From the NCBI GenBank assembly GCA_009777315.1, contig WRMD01000003.1, positions 1 through 64,000 of the forward strand: a stretch of 64,000 nucleotides of DNA, in the 5' to 3' direction. The stretch comes from Candidatus Saccharimonadota bacterium. Lineage in GTDB: Bacteria > Patescibacteriota > Saccharimonadia > Saccharimonadales > Saccharimonadaceae. The notes below the pieces were generated by a model. That model was not told the origin of the DNA. It made no database searches and saw only the letters and a list, made by a program, of their open reading frames with translations. Of this stretch, positions 2,386 to 51,592 are shown piece after piece. The position numbers and the translations under genes were made by a program. Within the stretch, counting starts at the first letter, position 1, and each line of letters opens with the position of its first letter.

Positions 2386-3269
2386 CTCCCCACCCCCTAC
2401 GGGTAGACACAGCGGAGGGAGTGGCCATAGCGCTTTATCTCGTACGCAATATTAGGAGTCCAGCCAGCACGGATAAGTTCAGCATTTACGTCTGCAAAGG
2501 CGACCATTGCGCCAGATAGTAGTGAAGACCCCCACCACAGTGCTCGAGCTTGGTCATATAGCCCCTGCGGCGCACGATACAACCCCATCGAGACAGTGGC
2601 GAAGATTCTTATGCTTGCAAGTTGGTGGTTTAGTGGTTGTAAGATTCTTTTTGCAGTTTTCCGCCCCTGAGCCCTCAGAGACAAAACGCTACAAGGGTTA
2701 TGCTTGTACTGATTTTGTGGATTTGATAAGATTCTCTAGGGTTTTGGGCTGATTTGTGGAGTGCTAGGAGTGTTATCCACCCTCCTGCAATGGACTTCAT
2801 AAATCTAATCCTAGTTGAACTTTAAGAAGTCCAGTGTTTCTGCTAGTCGAGGGCTTACTCTCGATAGAAAGGAGGTGCGTATGCTTAAACTACGTTTGTT
2901 GTTTGGCCTACTAGAAGTAACCGTAGATTTTCGTAAGAAATAGTTAAGTGTACCTTGCGGTACACTTAACACCCGTAGAGGTTTACTAGGTAAGCCTCGT
3001 TAGTATCATTCTATAACAAGCCAACACATAAAAGCAAGCTTTTTGACTGATCAAAAGCGCGCCTTCGCCACTGTCTCAGGAGCATTCTTCTACCCGGCTA
3101 TTGGTGCATATTGGCAGTCTTCACATGGGCATTGGTGGACCTCTTCACTAGTAGGGGCAATAACTCCGTCCTATATATTCTTGAGCAATACAGCTATCCA
3201 ACCCAACACCAGCGACGATAGAAATCTTGGCTATTCCCTCCGCTGTGTCTACCCGTAGGGGGTGGGGAG
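2386..3269. mobile_element. Cassette element E1: inverted pair of FISUMP C-terminal cassettes with ~450 bp central cargo
   Basis: Left TIR CTCCCCACCCCCTACGGGTAGACACAGCGGAGGGAG, minus cassette to GAGACAGTGGCGAAG (~2604); plus cassette from GCCTTCGCCACTGTCTC (~3060) to right TIR. Confidence 0.8.
2881..2943 (+). CDS. 20-aa micro-ORF MLKLRLLFGLLEVTVDFRKK
   Basis: Strong SD AAAGGAGGTGCGT directly upstream of ATG; immediately followed by hairpin GTTAAGTGTACC-TTGC-GGTACACTTAAC (2943-2970). Confidence 0.4.
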   Translation: MLKLRLLFGLLEVTVDFRKK

Positions 3270-8969: not shown

Positions 8970-9433
8970 CTCCCCACTCCCTACGGGTAGACACAGCGGA
9001 GGGAGTTACCAGCCCGTTTATGATTGCTATCTGTACCAGGATTATTACTTGCGTTATTTGTGTTTGTGCGCGCCGCATTTGAGGCCGAGGCCAACGACGA
9101 AGCATGCTGAAACAACGCTGATGACTGGCTGCCTAGGCCAGGATTTAATGGACTAAAGTTACCTATGGAGACAGTGGCGAAGGGAAGTTGTATAAAACTT
9201 CGACCCTCTCTGGAGGCCACCGAATCCTCCTTCGCCACTGTCTCGGCAGGTAGCTTTCAGTCAGGCGTTCGTAATCAAGCCAGCCTCATGCAATCGTGGA
9301 CTGGCTCACCTACATCATCTAGTAGTGCCAACCGTATAAATATATCCTCCGAGAATGCACAGCCATCTCAAGGTGCCAACAACAAAGCCTATGGTAACTC
9401 CCTTCGCTGTGTCTATCCGTAGGGGGTGGGGAG
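8970..9433. mobile_element. Cassette element E2 (inverted pair)
   Basis: TIRs at both ends; cassettes FATVSIGNFSPLNPGLG...NSLRCVYP (minus) and FATVSAGSFQSGVRNQ...NSLRCVYP (plus). Confidence 0.85.
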
Positions 9434-9571: not shown

Positions 9572-9630
9572 CGGTTTTGTCTCTGCTAGACTCCTATTTC
9601 GGGAGTTTTTCTTTTTGCAGATATCATCTC

Positions 9631-10085
9631 CTCCCCACCCCCTACGGGTAGACACAGCGGAGGGCATAACCAGCGTCTCTAGGTGGATTGCTACCGAATC
9701 CTGAACGAATTCTAGTAGCGTTCACATCTGAAAGATTAGTTCCAGCTCCCGAAAGGACAGACGATACCCACCAAGTTGCCGTTGTGGAATAACTAATGTT
9801 TGTGCTAATTACATGAATGACACCAGCCGTGACAGTGGCGAAGGAGGGGAGACTTTTATAAAGTCCCAACTTCCCTTCGCCACTGTCTCAGGTGGAGACT
9901 TTCTGTTTACTACCACTCTTGGGTTGCGATCTCAGTCTGAAGGCCCACACTGGTATTCATCGTCTATTGCTTCGGTAGCTAATGCTGCCAACATCTGGAT
10001 GTCAGGCATTGGCTCTTTTCCAGATGCGATTGCAAACAAGTACCGTGGTTACTCCCTCCGCTGTGTCTACCCGTAGGGGGTGGGG
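9631..10085. mobile_element. Cassette element E3 (inverted pair)
   Basis: TIRs; cassettes FATVTAGVIHVIST...YALRCVYP (minus) and FATVSGGDFLFTTT...YSLRCVYP (plus); centre contains GACTTTTATAAAGTC. Confidence 0.85.
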
Positions 10086-16295: not shown

Positions 16296-16315
16296 CTCCT
16301 TTTAGCCACAACTTC

Positions 16316-16816
16316 CTCCCCACCCCCTACGGGTAGACACAGCGGAGGGAGAAGCCGTAGGACTTACCAACATTACTGTGCGCGCCCGGTGGATACAGAG
16401 TGTTGGGGGCTACGCTCATGTGAGGTGGATTTGTCGCTGAATCCATGGAGATGACCCACCATTGTGCAGCTGCAGACTGAGCATATAAGCCTCTATTCGG
16501 AACGAAGTACCCATTCGAGACAGTGGCGAAGGAGGGCGATGAGAACTTCAAGTTGCCCCAAAATAAGCATAATCTCTTGACTTTTCATCCCGCTTGTGCT
16601 ATACTGTACAATAGAGATAATTATGTCCCAAGCCTCCTACCCCTGTTACAACAGGGGTCGTTCTTATTCTCTTCGCCACCACCTCATCGAGTAATAGTTC
16701 GTCAAAAAGGTCAGGATTCACTCCTGCCTTTTTGACTTTACCTAAAAGGGAAGAGGAAGAGAAACCGCTAGGTGTCTCTTAGCTGGACGCTGTGTCTACC
16801 CGTAGGGGGTGGGGAG
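16316..16816. mobile_element. Cassette element E4 (minus cassette intact, plus cassette degraded) with internal promoter/hairpin
   Basis: TIRs at both ends; FATVSNGYFVPNRG...FSLRCVYP (minus); TTGACT-17-TATACT promoter and ACCCCTGTTACAACAGGGGT hairpin in centre; right half out of frame. Confidence 0.8.
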
Positions 16817-26430: not shown

Positions 26431-26884
26431 CCCCACCCCCTACGGGTAGACACAGCGGAGGGAGAGACCAAGATAGCTTGCTGTAGCGTCACGTGTACCG
26501 GGGTTTATGGTGTTGTGGAGCAGGCGTGTATATGAAGCAACCGTTCCAGAGGCGACAGAGGGAACGAACCAGTGAGCTCGTTCGTTTAGGTACTCTAGGC
26601 CATTACCAGGACGTAGCATCCCGTCCGTGACAGTGGCGAAGGAAAGCCAGGACTTTATAAAGTCGCTCCTCCTTCGCCACTGTCACGTCGGCATGGCTTC
26701 AGCCCTTTTCTGGCGTCCGTGAGCAGTCCATGCAATCATATTGGTGGGATGCGTCACTAAGCACAGCCGACAACGCTTCCCTCACGAATGTGTTTAACGC
26801 GCAATCTGGACCGGGCCAACACGCCAACGGCCAAAGACATTTTGCCTTCTCCCTCCGCTGTGTCTACCCGTAGGGGGTGGGGAG
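26431..26884. mobile_element. Cassette element E5 (inverted pair)
   Basis: TIRs; minus cassette FATVTDGMLRPGNGLEYLNERAHWF...SLRCVYP and plus cassette FATVTSAWLQPFSGVREQSMQSYWWD...SLRCVYP (neither has an ATG-initiated ORF of track size); centre GACTTTATAAAGTC. Confidence 0.83.
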
Positions 26885-27088
26885 GATCTGCTTAGTCATT
26901 TGCTTAACCAAAAGGAACAAGAAGTAGAGTAAAGAAAAAGACCCTTCCCTCCCTAACTAACCCTAAGTAAGCCAAAAAGGACTAGACCATCCCCACTAAG
27001 TAACCATGAGCAAGACAGACAAGGAGGCCAGGAGGGCATAACTCTACTCTACACCAACAGCAGTGGGGAGGGAGCGTTTGCCGTGAAC

Positions 27089-29588: not shown

Positions 29589-31046
29589 TTAGTTTTTGCA
29601 TTGGAGGAGCATGTGCTCGATGGGGGCGAAGCGGTCGGTGTAGACGCGGCCGATAGCGCGCTGGAGCGGCTGGATGCTGCTGGTCTCGTCGAAGGTGAGG
29701 GCGCGGCGAGAGAAGATAAGTTCGATGTTGGTGATGGTATGATCGCCTGGGAATTGTTGGACTATGTAGCGGTTGGGTAGATGGCGAGCGTAAATGCCGT
29801 AGACGGCATCAAAGAGGCGGCTGCAATTGCCGGCTTGAGCGCCGATGAGGTTGACGACGATGACGCCTTGGTCGTCGAGTAGGTGGTTGAGGCGATCGCC
29901 GAATTCGCGGGTGACGAACTGCCAGGGCATGGCGATGTCTTTGGAGACGTCAACCATGATGAAGTCGTATTGCTTGGTGTCGGCTTTACTCCGGACGAAG
30001 CTGCGGGCGTCTTCGCCGTAGATATTAATGTTATCGTGTTGGACAAAGCCGAAGTGTTTTTCGGCGATGGTCTGGAGCTTGGGGTCGATTTCGACGACAT
30101 CGATGGTGGAATCGGGGTATTGTCTGGCGAAGTAGTCAGGGAGATTGAAAGCGCCGCCACCCAAAATAAGGATGCGGGGGGGGGCTTCGATGTCGGACAT
30201 GCTGCTATGGAAGACTTCAGCGACCCGATGTTGATACCAAAAGACGAGCTCGCCGGAGCCGTCGGTGAAGACGGCGGACTGGATGCCGTGCGGGCCACTG
30301 AGAAGGGCGGTGATGTCGCGATCTTCCCAGGTGGTGGAGACGACTAAGTAGCGGGCGGTGGCGGTGTCGATGGTTATAGTATCGGAATCGCTGGAGCGCC
30401 AGACGAGGAAGCCGGCGACAACAACGAGGGCGATGGAGAAAACGAGGCGAACTTCCCAGAGGTCTTTAGTGACGAGCAGCCAGCTAATGCCGGCTGAGAG
30501 GGCGACGAGCAAGGCAAGCGTGACGTCGCCGCCGATGAGGCCAAAGAGGACAAAACCAGTAAGGAAAGTGCCGAGGATGCTACCGATGGCGTTCATGGCG
30601 GAGAGGTTGGCGACTGAACTGCCGGAAGTTTCGGTGGAGGTGATGGCCATTTTGGCGAGATAGGGGCTGACCATGCCGAGGATGAAGCTGGGTAGGGCGA
30701 AGAGGAGGAGGGCGGCGGTAAGGCCTTGCCAGCGGGCGTCTTTGAAGATAGCGACGGAAAGGTCAATGATGAGGCTTCCGGCCATAAGGACGAAGACGAT
30801 GCCGGCGCTTGCTGCGAGGAGGAGCCAGACGATGTCGAGAGGATTGTTGCGCTGGTCGGCGACGCGACCGCCATACCAGTAGCCTAACGCAAGGGCAGCC
30901 ATGATGACGCCGATGACGCTAGTCCAAACGAAGATGGAAGCGCCAATAGTGGGGGCGAGGAGGCGGGCGGCAACTAGCTCGAAAATCATTAGGACGAAGC
31001 CGGCGGTAAACGCGACGATTTTGTAGGCTAGCCCCTTATTCTTCAT
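29589..31046 (-). CDS. Membrane-fused spermidine synthase-like protein
   Basis: N-terminal multi-TM domain; ILILGGGAFNLPDYFARQYPDSTIDVVEIDPKL methyltransferase-like core. Confidence 0.85.
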   Translation of the reverse strand: MKNKGLAYKIVAFTAGFVLMIFELVAARLLAPTIGASIFVWTSVIGVIMAALALGYWYGGRVADQRNNPLDIVWLLLAASAGIVFVLMAGSLIIDLSVAIFKDARWQGLTAALLLFALPSFILGMVSPYLAKMAITSTETSGSSVANLSAMNAIGSILGTFLTGFVLFGLIGGDVTLALLVALSAGISWLLVTKDLWEVRLVFSIALVVVAGFLVWRSSDSDTITIDTATARYLVVSTTWEDRDITALLSGPHGIQSAVFTDGSGELVFWYQHRVAEVFHSSMSDIEAPPRILILGGGAFNLPDYFARQYPDSTIDVVEIDPKLQTIAEKHFGFVQHDNINIYGEDARSFVRSKADTKQYDFIMVDVSKDIAMPWQFVTREFGDRLNHLLDDQGVIVVNLIGAQAGNCSRLFDAVYGIYARHLPNRYIVQQFPGDHTITNIELIFSRRALTFDETSSIQPLQRAIGRVYTDRFAPIEHMLLQCKN

Positions 31047-35185: not shown

Positions 35186-35283
35186 GAAACCAAGGTTTCT
35201 TCCTTCCTTAACTTGATTAAAAAGTCGGGAGTAAATCCCGAACTTTTTAATTGTTTATTGTCGCCTAGCGGCGTAAACTTATC

Positions 35284-35820
35284 CTCCCCACCCCCTACGG
35301 GTAGACACAGCGGAGGGAGAAGCCCTCCCTCCTAGATGAAGCATCTGTGCCAAAAAAGATTTGGGATGCACTGCTACCACGTAAGCTCGTAAAGGCCGAC
35401 TGAATCCCCGAGAGCACTGAAGAGGTGTACCAAAAGCTACGATCGTTTCGAGTATATTGCCCCTGGGATGGGAAGAAATAATCGCTCGAGACAGTGGCGA
35501 AGGAGGATTTCTATTGACTTTTCATTTCGCTTGTGCTATACTGTAGAGTAGAGAGAACTATGTTCTAATCCTCCCACCCCTGTTATAACAGGGGTCGTTC
35601 TTATTTCCTTCGCCACTGTTTCGGGCGGGTGGTTTCATCCTCCGGGAGGGGCATCGAGTATGTCTATGTTGTTGGTGTTTCATGCTTCTTCTTTGAATGT
35701 GCCTCCTGCTCCGTCCTCCATATGGTTGCGTACAATTACGGAAGTTCTGCCTGGCACACATGAAGGCATAACATCAAGTAGCTATCTACTCCGCTGTGTC
35801 TACCCGTAGGGGGTGGGGAG
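35284..35820. mobile_element. Cassette element E6 (inverted pair) with internal promoter/hairpin
   Basis: TIRs; FATVSSDYFFPSQG...FSLRCVYP (minus) and FATVSGGWFHPPGG...YLLRCVYP (plus); TTGACT-17-TATACT promoter plus ACCCCTGTTATAACAGGGGT hairpin in centre. Confidence 0.83.
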
Positions 35821-38657: not shown

Positions 38658-39144
38658 CTCCCCACCCCCTACGGGTAGACACAGCGGAGGGAGAGACCAT
38701 ACCGTTTAAAGTCGCTGCCGCCAGGGCCGCTAGACGTTAAGCTAGTAATTATGGAGCCTCCCGATATGTTTGATTGGAGAGAAGAGTTCCACTGATCGAT
38801 GCGTGTGGATTGGTAGGTTGAACCACTATCAGCCGCGGGACCGAAGCGACCCGACGAGACAGTGGCGAAGGAAAGCCGGAACTTTATAAAGCCAGCGATA
38901 TAACAGAGGTAGGAAACTTTATAAAGTTTTCCTTCGCCACTGTCGTTATGGGAATCTTTGATACAACTAGTGGCGGGCTAAGAGACCAGTCCCTGTTTGT
39001 ATGGTGGAGCAGTTCGTCCGTAGTATCCGCCATACATGCTGGTGGGGTGAATATGATGTCAACATCTGCCATAAACATCAGCTCGACACAGCAGAAACAA
39101 CATGGTTTTACCTTCCGCTGTGTCTACCCGTAGGGGGTGGGGAG
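38658..39144. mobile_element. Cassette element E7 (inverted pair)
   Basis: TIRs; FATVSSGRFGPAADSGS...LSLRCVYP (minus) and FATVVMGIFDTTSGG...FTFRCVYP (plus); centre has two CTTTATAAAG palindromes. Confidence 0.83.
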
Positions 39145-39183
39145 GATCTGGTAGAGGAGAGGTAATAATGGTATAATTCAAGT

Positions 39184-42564: not shown

Positions 42565-42782
42565 TCCTTCGCCACTGTCGGATCGGCTATCTTGCATAAT
42601 CAAGGCCTCACAGGGCTTCATGTAATGTCAGAGCGATCAATATGGTGGACGTCATCTAATGTATCAACTATATGGCCCGGCTATTCGTGGATCAGTCCTA
42701 CATTGACAGACCTGGCACGTTCCGATCATGGCAAATTCAGTGGTCTAGCCCTCCGCTGTGTCTACCCGTAGGGGGTGGGGAG
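42565..42782 (+). mobile_element. Half cassette element E8 (single plus cassette)
   Basis: CCTTCGCCACTGTCGG ... FATVGSAILHNQGLTG...LALRCVYP ... right TIR; structured RNA copy 2 directly upstream. Confidence 0.8.
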
Positions 42783-42873
42783 GAGGAGTGCGGCTAGTAA
42801 CTATCTGATAAATATGATATAGTATACATTAGAGTCGGGCAAACGCCCTGATTAGCATTTTGGAGGTGAGATC

Positions 42874-47886: not shown

Positions 47887-48049
47887 GGTTCAATGTTTCT
47901 CCTATGATAATACATATTATTATACACGTTTTAGGGAAAGAGTCAACTTGGTTTGGAACTTTCCCCCTCCCCCTTGCTTTAACCCTCATGCTAATGTTAA
48001 ACTTAAAGCATTAATGATTAACACAAGGTCTAAACGAGGTGCTCTAAAT

Positions 48050-49944
48050 ATGAAACAGCTTAACTCTAATAATACCTCCCCCCACCCAACTGGGGGGGGG
48101 GTCCTTCTAAGCTTGGTTTAGCTAGATACTCTACTAATAACAAACACTCCACCAAACTCCCATCATACAAACATACTACCAACTCCCCCAAAGGAACAAT
48201 CCACCAGTATAACAAGAAGTATAAGCATAATACCTCCATACCTACACTCTCCTCCAACCTCCTCACCAAATCCCTCCAGCCTACTAAGATACTAACTGGC
48301 CTAGTAATACTATCAGTCTTTACCACCCTAGCGGCTGGCATCGCCAGCCGCTTAGTCCCCTCATACGCGAGCCCTGCAGAACTCGGAGTAGCTTTTGGTG
48401 CCACGGTCGACTTCAGCCTAACTATGACCGTAGGGGACGCCTTTAGTACCTACAACTGCCCAGCCTCCGGCGGAGCCGGAGGCAGCCTGAACCTAGGCAG
48501 TGTCGCACCTAACGGCAATCTCTACTATGCCTGCGTTAACGTCAACGTCACTACCGACAGCACCCTAGGCTATACACTCTCGATGCAGGGAGACAGCACT
48601 GGACTATACAATAGTGCAGCTAGTGCTACGATAGCTAGAATGCCAGGCTCTATAGCATCTCCTTCTAGTACAGTCCTAGCCCAGAACAACACCTGGGGCT
48701 TCTGTATACCTGGTGATACGATGCAGGGTATAGCTAATGGCTTTAACACAGGCCCTACAGCCTGTGGTGGTACTAATGGTAACACAGCTAGTGCGATAGG
48801 CTTTGCCGGAGTACCTGTAGGTAAGACCCTAATCAAGTCCGTAGAGACCCTACCTACTACCGACACCCAGCAGAACACTCCAGTTAGGTTTGGGGTTCGT
48901 CCTACTGGAGCTACTGCAGCTGGTACCTACTCCTCCACCATTACCTTTACTGCTAGCATCAATGAAGCCCCTATAGTCTTTATGCAGACCTTCACTACTG
49001 CAGAGTGTAACATGCTTGCAGTAGGAGACATCATCACCCTACCTGATGCTAGAGACAATACACAGTACCGTATCAAAAAGATGCCCGACAACAAGTGCTG
49101 GATGATGGATAATCTGGCTTATACTGGTGGTGGGGATAATACCTATGGGGATGTGGTGCCGGCCTTCAGTGGCAGCACTCCCACTACATCCAGTACTGGT
49201 GTCCTGATTGAACACCCAGGCGGTGGTGACTGGCCAGTAGGTGGCAGTAACGCTAACCGACAAACTGTTCGTCAGTTCGCTAACAACAGCAGTGCCGGCT
49301 TTAATAACACGTCCTGTCTACCAGATACTCCAACCGGCACTGGTGTTATGCAATCTATCTGTGGCGACCAGGTGCTCTACAACTTCTGCGCAGCTATGGG
49401 GCTAGACGATTCTACCACTCCTACTTGTAGTGCAGTTTCTAACACAACCACCGGTACCAACATGGCATCTACCGGTGTGGTCGGTGCAACAGGAAGCGGC
49501 ATAGGTGGCGAGAGCCTTGGTTCCGGCGGCACTTCCATTTGCCCTGCTGGCTGGAGGATACCTGTAGGACGGGTCGGCGCCAGCAATGACAGCAACAATG
49601 AATGGGCTATACTCAGTGGAGCATTCAATACTGGCGGGACAAACTTAGCCCCTAATACTTCAACTGATGCTGGCTTCATGGGTTACTGGCAGCCGGCTGG
49701 TACATCAGTAGGTTCGGGTGGTATCCAGCTTGGTGGCGGGGCCTTTGGTACAGTATCAGCCGGCAGCGTCACTAGTGCGGCGGGCGATCTCAACGGTCAG
49801 TCCTCGTACGCGTACTGGTGGACATCCTCCTTAAGCTCTGCTACCAACGCTTGGGACACGGCCGTGAACAGCACGAACGTCAACCCCGGCACGAACGGCA
49901 ACAATAAGGCCGCCGGATTCACTGTCCGATGTGTTTATCCTTAG
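48050..49944 (+). CDS. Secreted/surface protein with C-terminal FISUMP (Fibrobacter succinogenes major paralogous-like) domain; interrupted at a G10 tract
   Basis: SD GAGGTG and ATG at 48050 (MKQLNSNNTSPHPTGGG), then G10 at 48092-48101; main frame opens from 48073 and has no ATG/GTG/TTG upstream of the signal/TM segment KILTGLVILSVFTTLAAGIASRLVPSYA; C-term ...GGAFGTVSAGSV...YWWTSSLSSATNAW...GFTVRCVYP. Confidence 0.8.
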
Positions 49945-50060: not shown

Positions 50061-50271
50061 CCTTCGCCACTGTCACATCGGATGCGTTCAATGCTTCCTT
50101 TGGTCTATGGGGTCAATCTTTAGTTTCTACCTGGTACACTTCTTCGCTCTTGTCGGCAACACGAACAACGTTCGCACATTTAGCACCTACATTCATGAGA
50201 GCCGGAACTCATGATGATGTCAGAGCTTTTGGCGAATCCCTCCGCTGTGTCTACCCGTAGGGGGTGGGGAG
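50061..50271 (+). mobile_element. Half cassette element E9 (single plus cassette) directly downstream of the FISUMP gene
   Basis: CCTTCGCCACTGTCACATCG...FATVTSDAFNASFGLWGQSLVSTWYTSSLLSATRTTF...ESLRCVYP + TIR; preceded by three TTTATAAAG palindromes. Confidence 0.8.
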
Positions 50272-50330
50272 GATATGGTATAATTACCTCATGAACGAGG
50301 AGTCTCAACTGGTAATGGTAAGGGGGCGTA

Positions 50331-51395
50331 GTGAGCCAGTCTGACAACTTCGGAGAATACAAAAAACTTGGTGAGCCGGATAAACTAAGGAAGGTTGAGA
50401 ACTGGCGGGTCGGTATTGGTCTGCAACAAATTGACGGGCTGACGCCATCTAAGCAACTGATTGAGCTTGCGAAAGACAACATTGAGGGCAAGATTTCGAT
50501 TGATGAAGCAACAGAACGAATCGCCCAGTATTACAAGAAGAACCCGGCTCAAACTCCAATAGAGAGAGGCGAGCAGGAAGCCGATGAAGTTTCTTCTCGC
50601 ATCACTAGGCTGCTGAGTAGCAATACTTTCGCTCTTAGTCCGGCCGAACTGGTGTCAATTCACAAATACCTGTTCAATGGTGTGCTGAGCGACGAAATCG
50701 CCGGCAAAATTCGCGACTACGACATTAGCAAGGACGAGCCCATATTGAACGGCTATACTGTGAGTTACGGTCGAGCAGATAGTATCCAAGAAACGCTGGA
50801 TTATGACTTCAGTCGGGAGAAAGAGTTTAGTTTTAAGGGTTTGACGCAGCAGGAGAAAGTCGAACATATCATGATGTTTATGTCTGGCGTTTGGCAGATT
50901 CATCCGTTTGCTGAAGGGAATACTCGTACTATAGCCGTGTTTGTTATTAAGTACCTTCGAACGTTGGGGTTCAAGGCGAATAACGAGTTGTTTGATGAAA
51001 ACTCTGTTTACTTCCGCAATGCTCTTGTCCGGGCGAACTACAATAATCTTGAAAAGGGTGTATATGAGAATACGGAGTATTTACGTATGTTCTTCGGTAA
51101 CTTGTTGCTAGGCGAGAAGAATAGGTTGCGTAACGGAGACATGCAAATTGACTCAGAAACTACCCAGAAAACTACCCAGAAAACTACCCAGAAAGTCTTG
51201 GATGTTTTAGTGAATAATCCATCAGCTACTCGCAAAGAAATGGCGGAGATTATAGGACTAACTGAAGATGGGGTGAAGTGGAATCTTAACAAGCTACGTG
51301 AAGAAGGTAAGATTAGGCGCATCGGCCCGGATAATGGCGGGCACTGGGAAGTTGTGGAAGCGGGCGGCGCTTTTCTCCCCACCCCCTACGGGTAG
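50331..51395 (+). CDS. Fic-domain protein with C-terminal winged helix; C-terminus encoded by an element TIR
   Basis: HPFAEGNTRTIAVFVIKYLR Fic motif; TTQKTTQKTTQK linker; last residues FLPTPYG read through TIR of E10. Confidence 0.88.
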   Translation: MSQSDNFGEYKKLGEPDKLRKVENWRVGIGLQQIDGLTPSKQLIELAKDNIEGKISIDEATERIAQYYKKNPAQTPIERGEQEADEVSSRITRLLSSNTFALSPAELVSIHKYLFNGVLSDEIAGKIRDYDISKDEPILNGYTVSYGRADSIQETLDYDFSREKEFSFKGLTQQEKVEHIMMFMSGVWQIHPFAEGNTRTIAVFVIKYLRTLGFKANNELFDENSVYFRNALVRANYNNLEKGVYENTEYLRMFFGNLLLGEKNRLRNGDMQIDSETTQKTTQKTTQKVLDVLVNNPSATRKEMAEIIGLTEDGVKWNLNKLREEGKIRRIGPDNGGHWEVVEAGGAFLPTPYG

Positions 51396-51592
51396 ACACA
51401 GCGGAGGGAAAAGCCTGCAGGTTTGCCGACGTTGGCTGCGCTATGGGCTATGAAGGTTTCGGTTAAATATAGATAGGGTGCTGTGGCGGTCGATAGCAGA
51501 GATGAGTTCCACCAATGTGCTTCGTTGCTGGGTTGAGACAGAGTGCTGGTAGTAAACCAGCCGGTCGAGACAGTGGCGAAGGCCCCATGCTC
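51375..51592 (-). mobile_element. Half cassette element E10 (single minus cassette)
   Basis: TIR then minus cassette FATVSTGWFTTSTLSQPSNEAHWWNSSLLSTATAPYLYLTETF...FSLRCVYP; ends at GAGACAGTGGCGAAGG. Confidence 0.8.

Follow-up and report, generated by a model that had tools for sequence, protein, structure and literature searches.

We begin with the question that a single gene raises: why does a surface-protein frame of 613 open codons have no start codon that reaches it? The gene lies at positions 48,050 to 49,944 of a 64,000-nucleotide stretch (the window) of contig WRMD01000003.1, called C3 here, from a Candidatus Saccharimonadota bacterium whose genome is a 30-contig draft of 834 kb, 87% complete. 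Its frame encodes a FISUMP protein and is set off by a run of ten G from a leader that has a start codon of its own. The answer that we consider very likely is phase variation: the locus would be a contingency gene, in which slipped-strand changes of the G run choose which surface proteins, diversified by a diversity-generating retroelement (DGR), get made. A very small bacterium would then probably use repeat slippage to turn its hypervariable surface proteins on and off, in the manner of Neisseria. Phase variation through this tract had been proposed by a sequence-only reading of the window, and it is supported here by paralogue gates of different length, by the repeat types of relatives, by selection on the OFF frames and by the missing MutS. 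The sequence read for this study comprises the surroundings of poly-G tracts and of matches to FISUMP and to repeats.

The G tract and the blocked frame

The elements of the gate, from the upstream block to the end of the gene, are as follows.

47973 to 48005 (+): upstream block CTTGCTTTAACCCTCATGCTAATGTTAAACTTA, a putative promoter common to three paralogous loci, near-identical in C3, C10 and C17
47989 to 47997 (+): possible extended -10, TGCTAATGT, in the upstream block; predicted promoter function
48036 to 48041 (+): Shine-Dalgarno (SD) sequence GAGGTG, 8-nt spacing to ATG 48050; GAGGT kept in the paralogues
48050 to 48121 (+): leader frame as assembled, MKQLNSNNTSPHPTGGGVLLSLV* (asterisk, stop), the OFF state; leader conserved in C10 and C17
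48092 to 48101 (+): G10 tract, proposed to act as the slippage switch, OFF at 10 G and ON at 8 or 11; C10 has 9 G at the same place with identical flanks
48108 to 48110 (+): TAA (TCC TTC TAA) ending the 9-G register, earlier than the TAG; conserved among the three copies
48119 to 48121 (+): TAG ending the 10-G frame, within DNA conserved among the three copies
48103 to 49944 (+): portion of the FISUMP surface protein read in the ON state, 613 aa downstream of the tract, counting the stop; no in-frame start until 48424

A simple sigma-70 scan does not pick the upstream block as a promoter. The ten G occupy codons 15-18 of the leader, between the flanks CCCAACT and TCCTTCTAAG. The tract, the ATG with its good SD and the premature TAG are all where the earlier reading had placed them. 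That reading also put the FISUMP frame one base off and open from 48073, which holds (it opens after TAA 48070-48072 and stops at 49942-49944), and gave it 630 aa, which does not, the open frame being 623 codons. It was right that no alternative start precedes the membrane segment: the first in-frame ATG, GTG or TTG is ATG 48424, which falls downstream of that segment. With 9 G the reading is ...GGGSF*, while with 8 or 11 G it passes into PSKLGLARYS... and the rest of the 613-aa frame. Thus 8 or 11 G would fuse leader and FISUMP frame as had been claimed, 9 and 10 G meet early stops, and the fused ON product with 11 G has 631 aa.

Sister genes in the same genome

Is this arrangement peculiar to one gene? 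Three more FISUMP genes of the genome carry G9-G10 at codons ~14-18, those on C10 (9 G), C17 (10 G) and C7 (10 G). The genes on C3, C10 and C17 have a common leader and upstream block, the flanks CCCCCACCCAACT and TCCTTCTAAGCTTGGTTTAG being identical around tracts of 10, 9 and 10 G, and all three open reading frames (ORFs) retain the 8/11-G register; a 41-codon insertion in C3 relative to C17 preserves the frame. The gene on C7 has an unrelated leader, MGRSRLSFILSNRLGGG, and with its 10 G would need 9 or 12 G to be ON. Two paralogues are un-gated, one on C6 and one of 1224 aa on C17; neither has a tract at its start, and in both an ordinary ATG stands before the same membrane segment. The exact leader pattern occurs in this genome and in none of 100 relatives, and it has no match in IMG/VR.

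The missing start invites the view that the gene is a pseudogene, broken by a frameshift and decaying, as no start codon reaches the FISUMP ORF in the assembly. The pairwise dN/dS of the blocked frames, taken outside the variable region over pairs with measurable dS, is about 0.2-0.34, however, and therefore these frames have been translated and selected; judged from the sequence comparison, they are under purifying selection. With 613 open codons, with the SD, leader and tract conserved in three copies and with no other damage, decay is very improbable.

A different possibility is that the 10-G gene yields some fused protein with no mutation at all, if the ribosome shifts frame, or transcription slips, on the G tract. 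Both polymerase and ribosome can slip on G runs, the FISUMP frames stay conserved though unreachable, and a C-rich stretch beside the G run could form a hairpin. Set against FRAMESHIFTING, however, the same leader would require a -1 shift in C3 and C17 (10 G) and a +1 shift in C10 (9 G), with +1 also in C7. There is therefore no fixed programmed shift that serves C3, C17 and C10 at the same sequence, and a tract that drifts in length explains the pattern. Relatives, described below, have CT or AG repeats at the same coding place and G tracts in promoter spacers, on which frameshifting cannot act; we regard it as unlikely.

Other repeats are found in the same genome. Tracts of G9-G12 lie in promoter-like spacers of non-FISUMP genes at C10:17501 (L003), C18:12447 (L010) and C5:39711 (L001), the last of which precedes a greA-like gene. 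The genome's only long CT repeat, (CT)25 at G000:C6:4139-4188 (L073), precedes the un-gated FISUMP gene of C6 by about 340 bp. Two in-frame G9 tracts (L004, G000:C11:11224 and 16103) are in genes of an apparent surface-polysaccharide cluster (membrane protein, methyltransferase).

Repeat gates in related genera

The next question is whether the FISUMP genes of related bacteria are gated as well. Such genes are present in 17 of 101 genomes of the order, and their 5' ends carry three kinds of candidate switch: coding G tracts, coding dinucleotide repeats and promoter-spacer G tracts. Coding G11 tracts, which leave the start codon out of frame, are found in FISUMP genes of G053 and G006. Coding CT repeats, again with the ORF frame lacking a start, are found in those of G042, (CT)12, G012, (CT)9, and G003, (CT)10 twice. 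Tracts of G8-G9 lie in the -35/-10 spacers of FISUMP genes of G040, G042, G006 and G021, of which four read as follows.

G042: TTGACA-CTGACGGCT-G9-TATAAT
G040: TTGACA-TTATTTTCT-G9-TATACT
G040 (second): TTGCCT-TTTGTCCCT-G8-TATAAT
G021: TTGACA-C-G9-TGCACT-TATAAT

The strict pattern TTGACA-Gn-TATAAT has 7 matches, spread over 5 of 294 genomes; the reversed control has 0. In G034, G9 and G12 tracts stand in the promoters of pilin-like genes. CT and AG tracts are numerous in G003 and G012 (135 and 284 overlapping 16-mer matches), and those read there mostly run from an SD and ATG through a short leader and an (AG)n or (CT)n repeat to a membrane segment and a large secreted frame. Among the 43 coding gates collected over all fetched loci, 14 are ON as assembled, the third that is expected of a random frame, and 30 have a strong hydrophobic membrane segment at most 90 aa from the tract (18 of 50 window ORFs do); because the set was assembled by looking for repeats and for FISUMP genes, with gates assigned by a script, it gives a pattern and not a rate.

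Slippage at such tracts is expected to be frequent where mismatch repair is lacking, as in mutS mutants. MutS_V is found in 1 of the 101 genomes, with 11 of 14 control genomes positive, and it is not found in the genome holding the window. Gene-content work on Saccharibacteria likewise reports neither MutS nor MutL (PMC8406219). The absence here fits, without proving, a placement of the window's organism in that group.

Chance, assembly error and other points against switching

Several observations weigh against a switching locus. The window holds one G10/C10 tract where 0.30 are expected, and because 21 of 100 shuffles of the 64 kb contain at least one, the tract alone is not significant. All four gates of this genome are OFF as assembled (chance about 0.2 if they are independent), and the evidence of length change at the same locus is the 9 versus 10 G between paralogues. 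The loci were partly picked for holding long repeats, and the automatic gate classes include probable chance tracts (e.g., L004, L030, L162). Finally, 10-base homopolymers are error-prone, and their length can be wrong in a draft assembly such as this one.

Could the G run then have arisen by chance at a GC-rich gene start and play no part in switching? The shuffles would allow it, but the placement does not look random: the first 60 nt of FISUMP genes hold 4 of the 11 internal tracts of at least nine G in the 834-kb genome (P about 1e-10), a count that leaves out poly-G at the ends of contigs C12 and C16 with the look of junk or assembly edges. When the three homologous leaders count as one, P is about 2e-5. 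With G9-G10 at four FISUMP starts, one of them behind an unrelated leader, and with repeated use in other genera, a chance run is barely credible. A nine-C tract of the window (30176-30184, -), considered as a further gate, lies within an ordinary coding stretch (EAPPRI) and is not gate-like.

The error-prone homopolymer also suggests that the true tract might be 8 or 11 G and the gene simply ON. Such an assembly or sequencing error would be required at four loci of this genome and at the repeats of several others, including dinucleotide repeats of 18-66 bp that are likewise OFF and where indel error is less usual; we judge it quite unlikely, and the slippable tract at the gene start stands even if its assembled length is wrong.

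The blocked protein as a DGR target

What would the gate release? Behind the tract, the frame contains three elements.

About 48289 to 48348 (+): N-terminal membrane/signal segment ILTGLVILSVFTTLAAGIAS, hydrophobicity 2.19, which aligns with that of the un-gated paralogue on C6
49090 to 49935 (+): FISUMP (Fib_succ_major) domain, PF09603, TIGR02145
49741 to 49944 (+): DGR variable region (VR), the C-terminal 68 codons, at 82% identity with the C6 template repeat

The domain is matched by Pfam PF09603 (3.6e-9, 37.6 bits, cut-off 33.9) and NCBIfam TIGR02145 (3.7e-12, 47.3 bits, cut-off 41.65), and its AlphaFold model, built from a two-sequence alignment, has a pLDDT of 26. The VR of the window gene differs from the template at 20 of 57 template adenines versus 13 of 144 other bases (P = 2e-5), and the VR beside the reverse transcriptase (RT) at 21 of 61 adenines versus 0 of 162 other bases (P 8e-14). 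Since the changes are concentrated on template adenines, the gated protein serves as a DGR target or did so until recently. The RT itself (RVT_1, C6:31595-32269) adjoins the template repeat (C6:32478-32672), both being on a contig other than that of the gated window gene, and its translation contains IGNLTSQ, the motif that replaces QGxxxSP in DGR enzymes. A 249-aa ORF directly upstream of the RT, in the Avd position, has no Pfam or NCBIfam match. RT genes are found in 6 of 16 FISUMP-bearing relatives; gating therefore occurs also in genomes with no detected RT, and gate and DGR are not obligately coupled.

The membrane anchor, the FISUMP domain and the VR together suggest an outward-facing binding protein, for which host-cell attachment or phage escape would be a natural role in an epibiont.

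Some further observations touch this system. In G040 a DGR-type RT gene (L207 position 2048, G040:C4:73747) has its own in-frame G10 near the start and is ON as assembled. The genome of the window has a second RT with IGNLTSQ (L126, G000:C8:16381-16962) and a remnant (L127, G000:C6, 13-377) in which a leader ending in TSPHPTG is joined straight to the VR beside the DGR RT, its G tract being only GGG. In a search of GTDB contig proteins, one relative is found (L052, WRLD01000030.1), the FISUMP domain of which is 68% identical; this search yields no second allele of the G10 gate, the contig of that single relative ending before the 5' end. The contig is from a termite-gut sample, binned as Defluviitaleaceae, and possibly belongs, misbinned, to the lineage of the window.

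A proposed mechanism and its known counterparts

Combining the gate with the DGR, we picture the contingency locus as follows. Slipped-strand mispairing at replication would gain or lose G in the tract, 14 codons past the start. With 10 G, as assembled, or 9 G, the ribosome would exit at a conserved stop within a few codons and no protein would be made, while with 8 or 11 G the leader would run on into the 613-aa frame to yield a FISUMP surface protein anchored in the membrane. Several such genes per genome would switch independently, leaving each cell to display a random subset. Slippage would pick the protein shown, and the DGR would rewrite its C-terminal VR, altering what the protein binds. 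From the sequence we infer slippage in living cells, display at the surface and a role in binding, either for host-cell attachment or for phage/host evasion.

The components of this mechanism have counterparts elsewhere. The pilC genes of Neisseria gonorrhoeae (PMC5320596) are likewise surface genes with poly-G near the 5' end of the coding sequence, one length in three being in frame; the protein family here is unrelated, the lineage is without MutS, and the targets also carry a DGR VR. The Neisseria Opa genes (PMC5320596) likewise form a large paralogous set encoding surface proteins, every one with its own gating repeat close to the start codon, but their repeats are CTTCT, whereas those here are G, CT or AG and the protein diversity comes from the DGR. 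The homopolymers between the -35 and -10 of fetA and porA (PMC5320596) resemble the G8-G12 tracts in the TTGACA/TATAAT spacers of FISUMP and pilin-like genes in related genera; this transcriptional mode is not that of the window's G10 gate, and the promoter-spacer effect is a predicted one. The DGRs of Patescibacteria clade 2 (PMC8144416) share the RT with IGNLTSQ, the template repeat and the adenine-specific C-terminal VRs, though no repeat-gated target expression is described there; clade-2 targets in the candidate phyla radiation (CPR) usually are without recognizable membrane segments (PMC8144416), whereas the FISUMP targets here have one. A gracilibacterium PTD-repeat gene (PMC6851277) shows repeat variation in a CPR surface protein, but its in-frame 9-mer repeats vary synonymously, with no ON/OFF switch.

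In the open-access literature (subscription papers and preprints being outside the search), we find no report of simple sequence repeat switching in Saccharibacteria, Patescibacteria or CPR. The mechanism is known; judged by the literature searched, what appears new is its use in this lineage, taken to be Saccharibacteria, and its gating of DGR targets. On balance we favor a wider reading, in which this presumed Saccharibacteria family has a genome-wide set of repeat-switched surface genes (coding G, CT and AG, promoter-spacer G), aided by the loss of mismatch repair, with the switched genes of some members being DGR targets and, in G040, even the RT carrying a coding G10, so that these ultra-small epibionts would have two layers of diversification. 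Cultivated Patescibacteria are obligate episymbionts with host recognition largely unknown (PMC12206443). If both the switching and the rewriting by a DGR are real, host range and attachment would differ among the cells of one clone, annotation of a single reference genome would wrongly list such genes as broken or missing, and the known loss of MutS and MutL in Saccharibacteria would gain a use, unchecked slippage at contingency loci.

FISUMP-tail cassettes in the window

About 17 intergenic FISUMP-tail cassettes are dispersed in the window, ending in ...LRCVYP*GVG and hypervariable where the DGR VR varies. Examples are given below.

3227-3269 (+), 9383-9433 (+), 9621-9664 (-), 16314-16350 (-), 26850-26890 (+)
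35280-35318 (-), 39111-39153 (+), 42749-42784 (+), 50237-50275 (+), 51375-51409 (-)

The gated protein had been assigned to the same family as these cassettes, and rightly so: its C-terminus and the cassettes represent variants of a single FISUMP tail, which shows the behavior of a DGR VR. The cassettes may serve as silent donors, or they may be orphan DGR targets or mobile tails.
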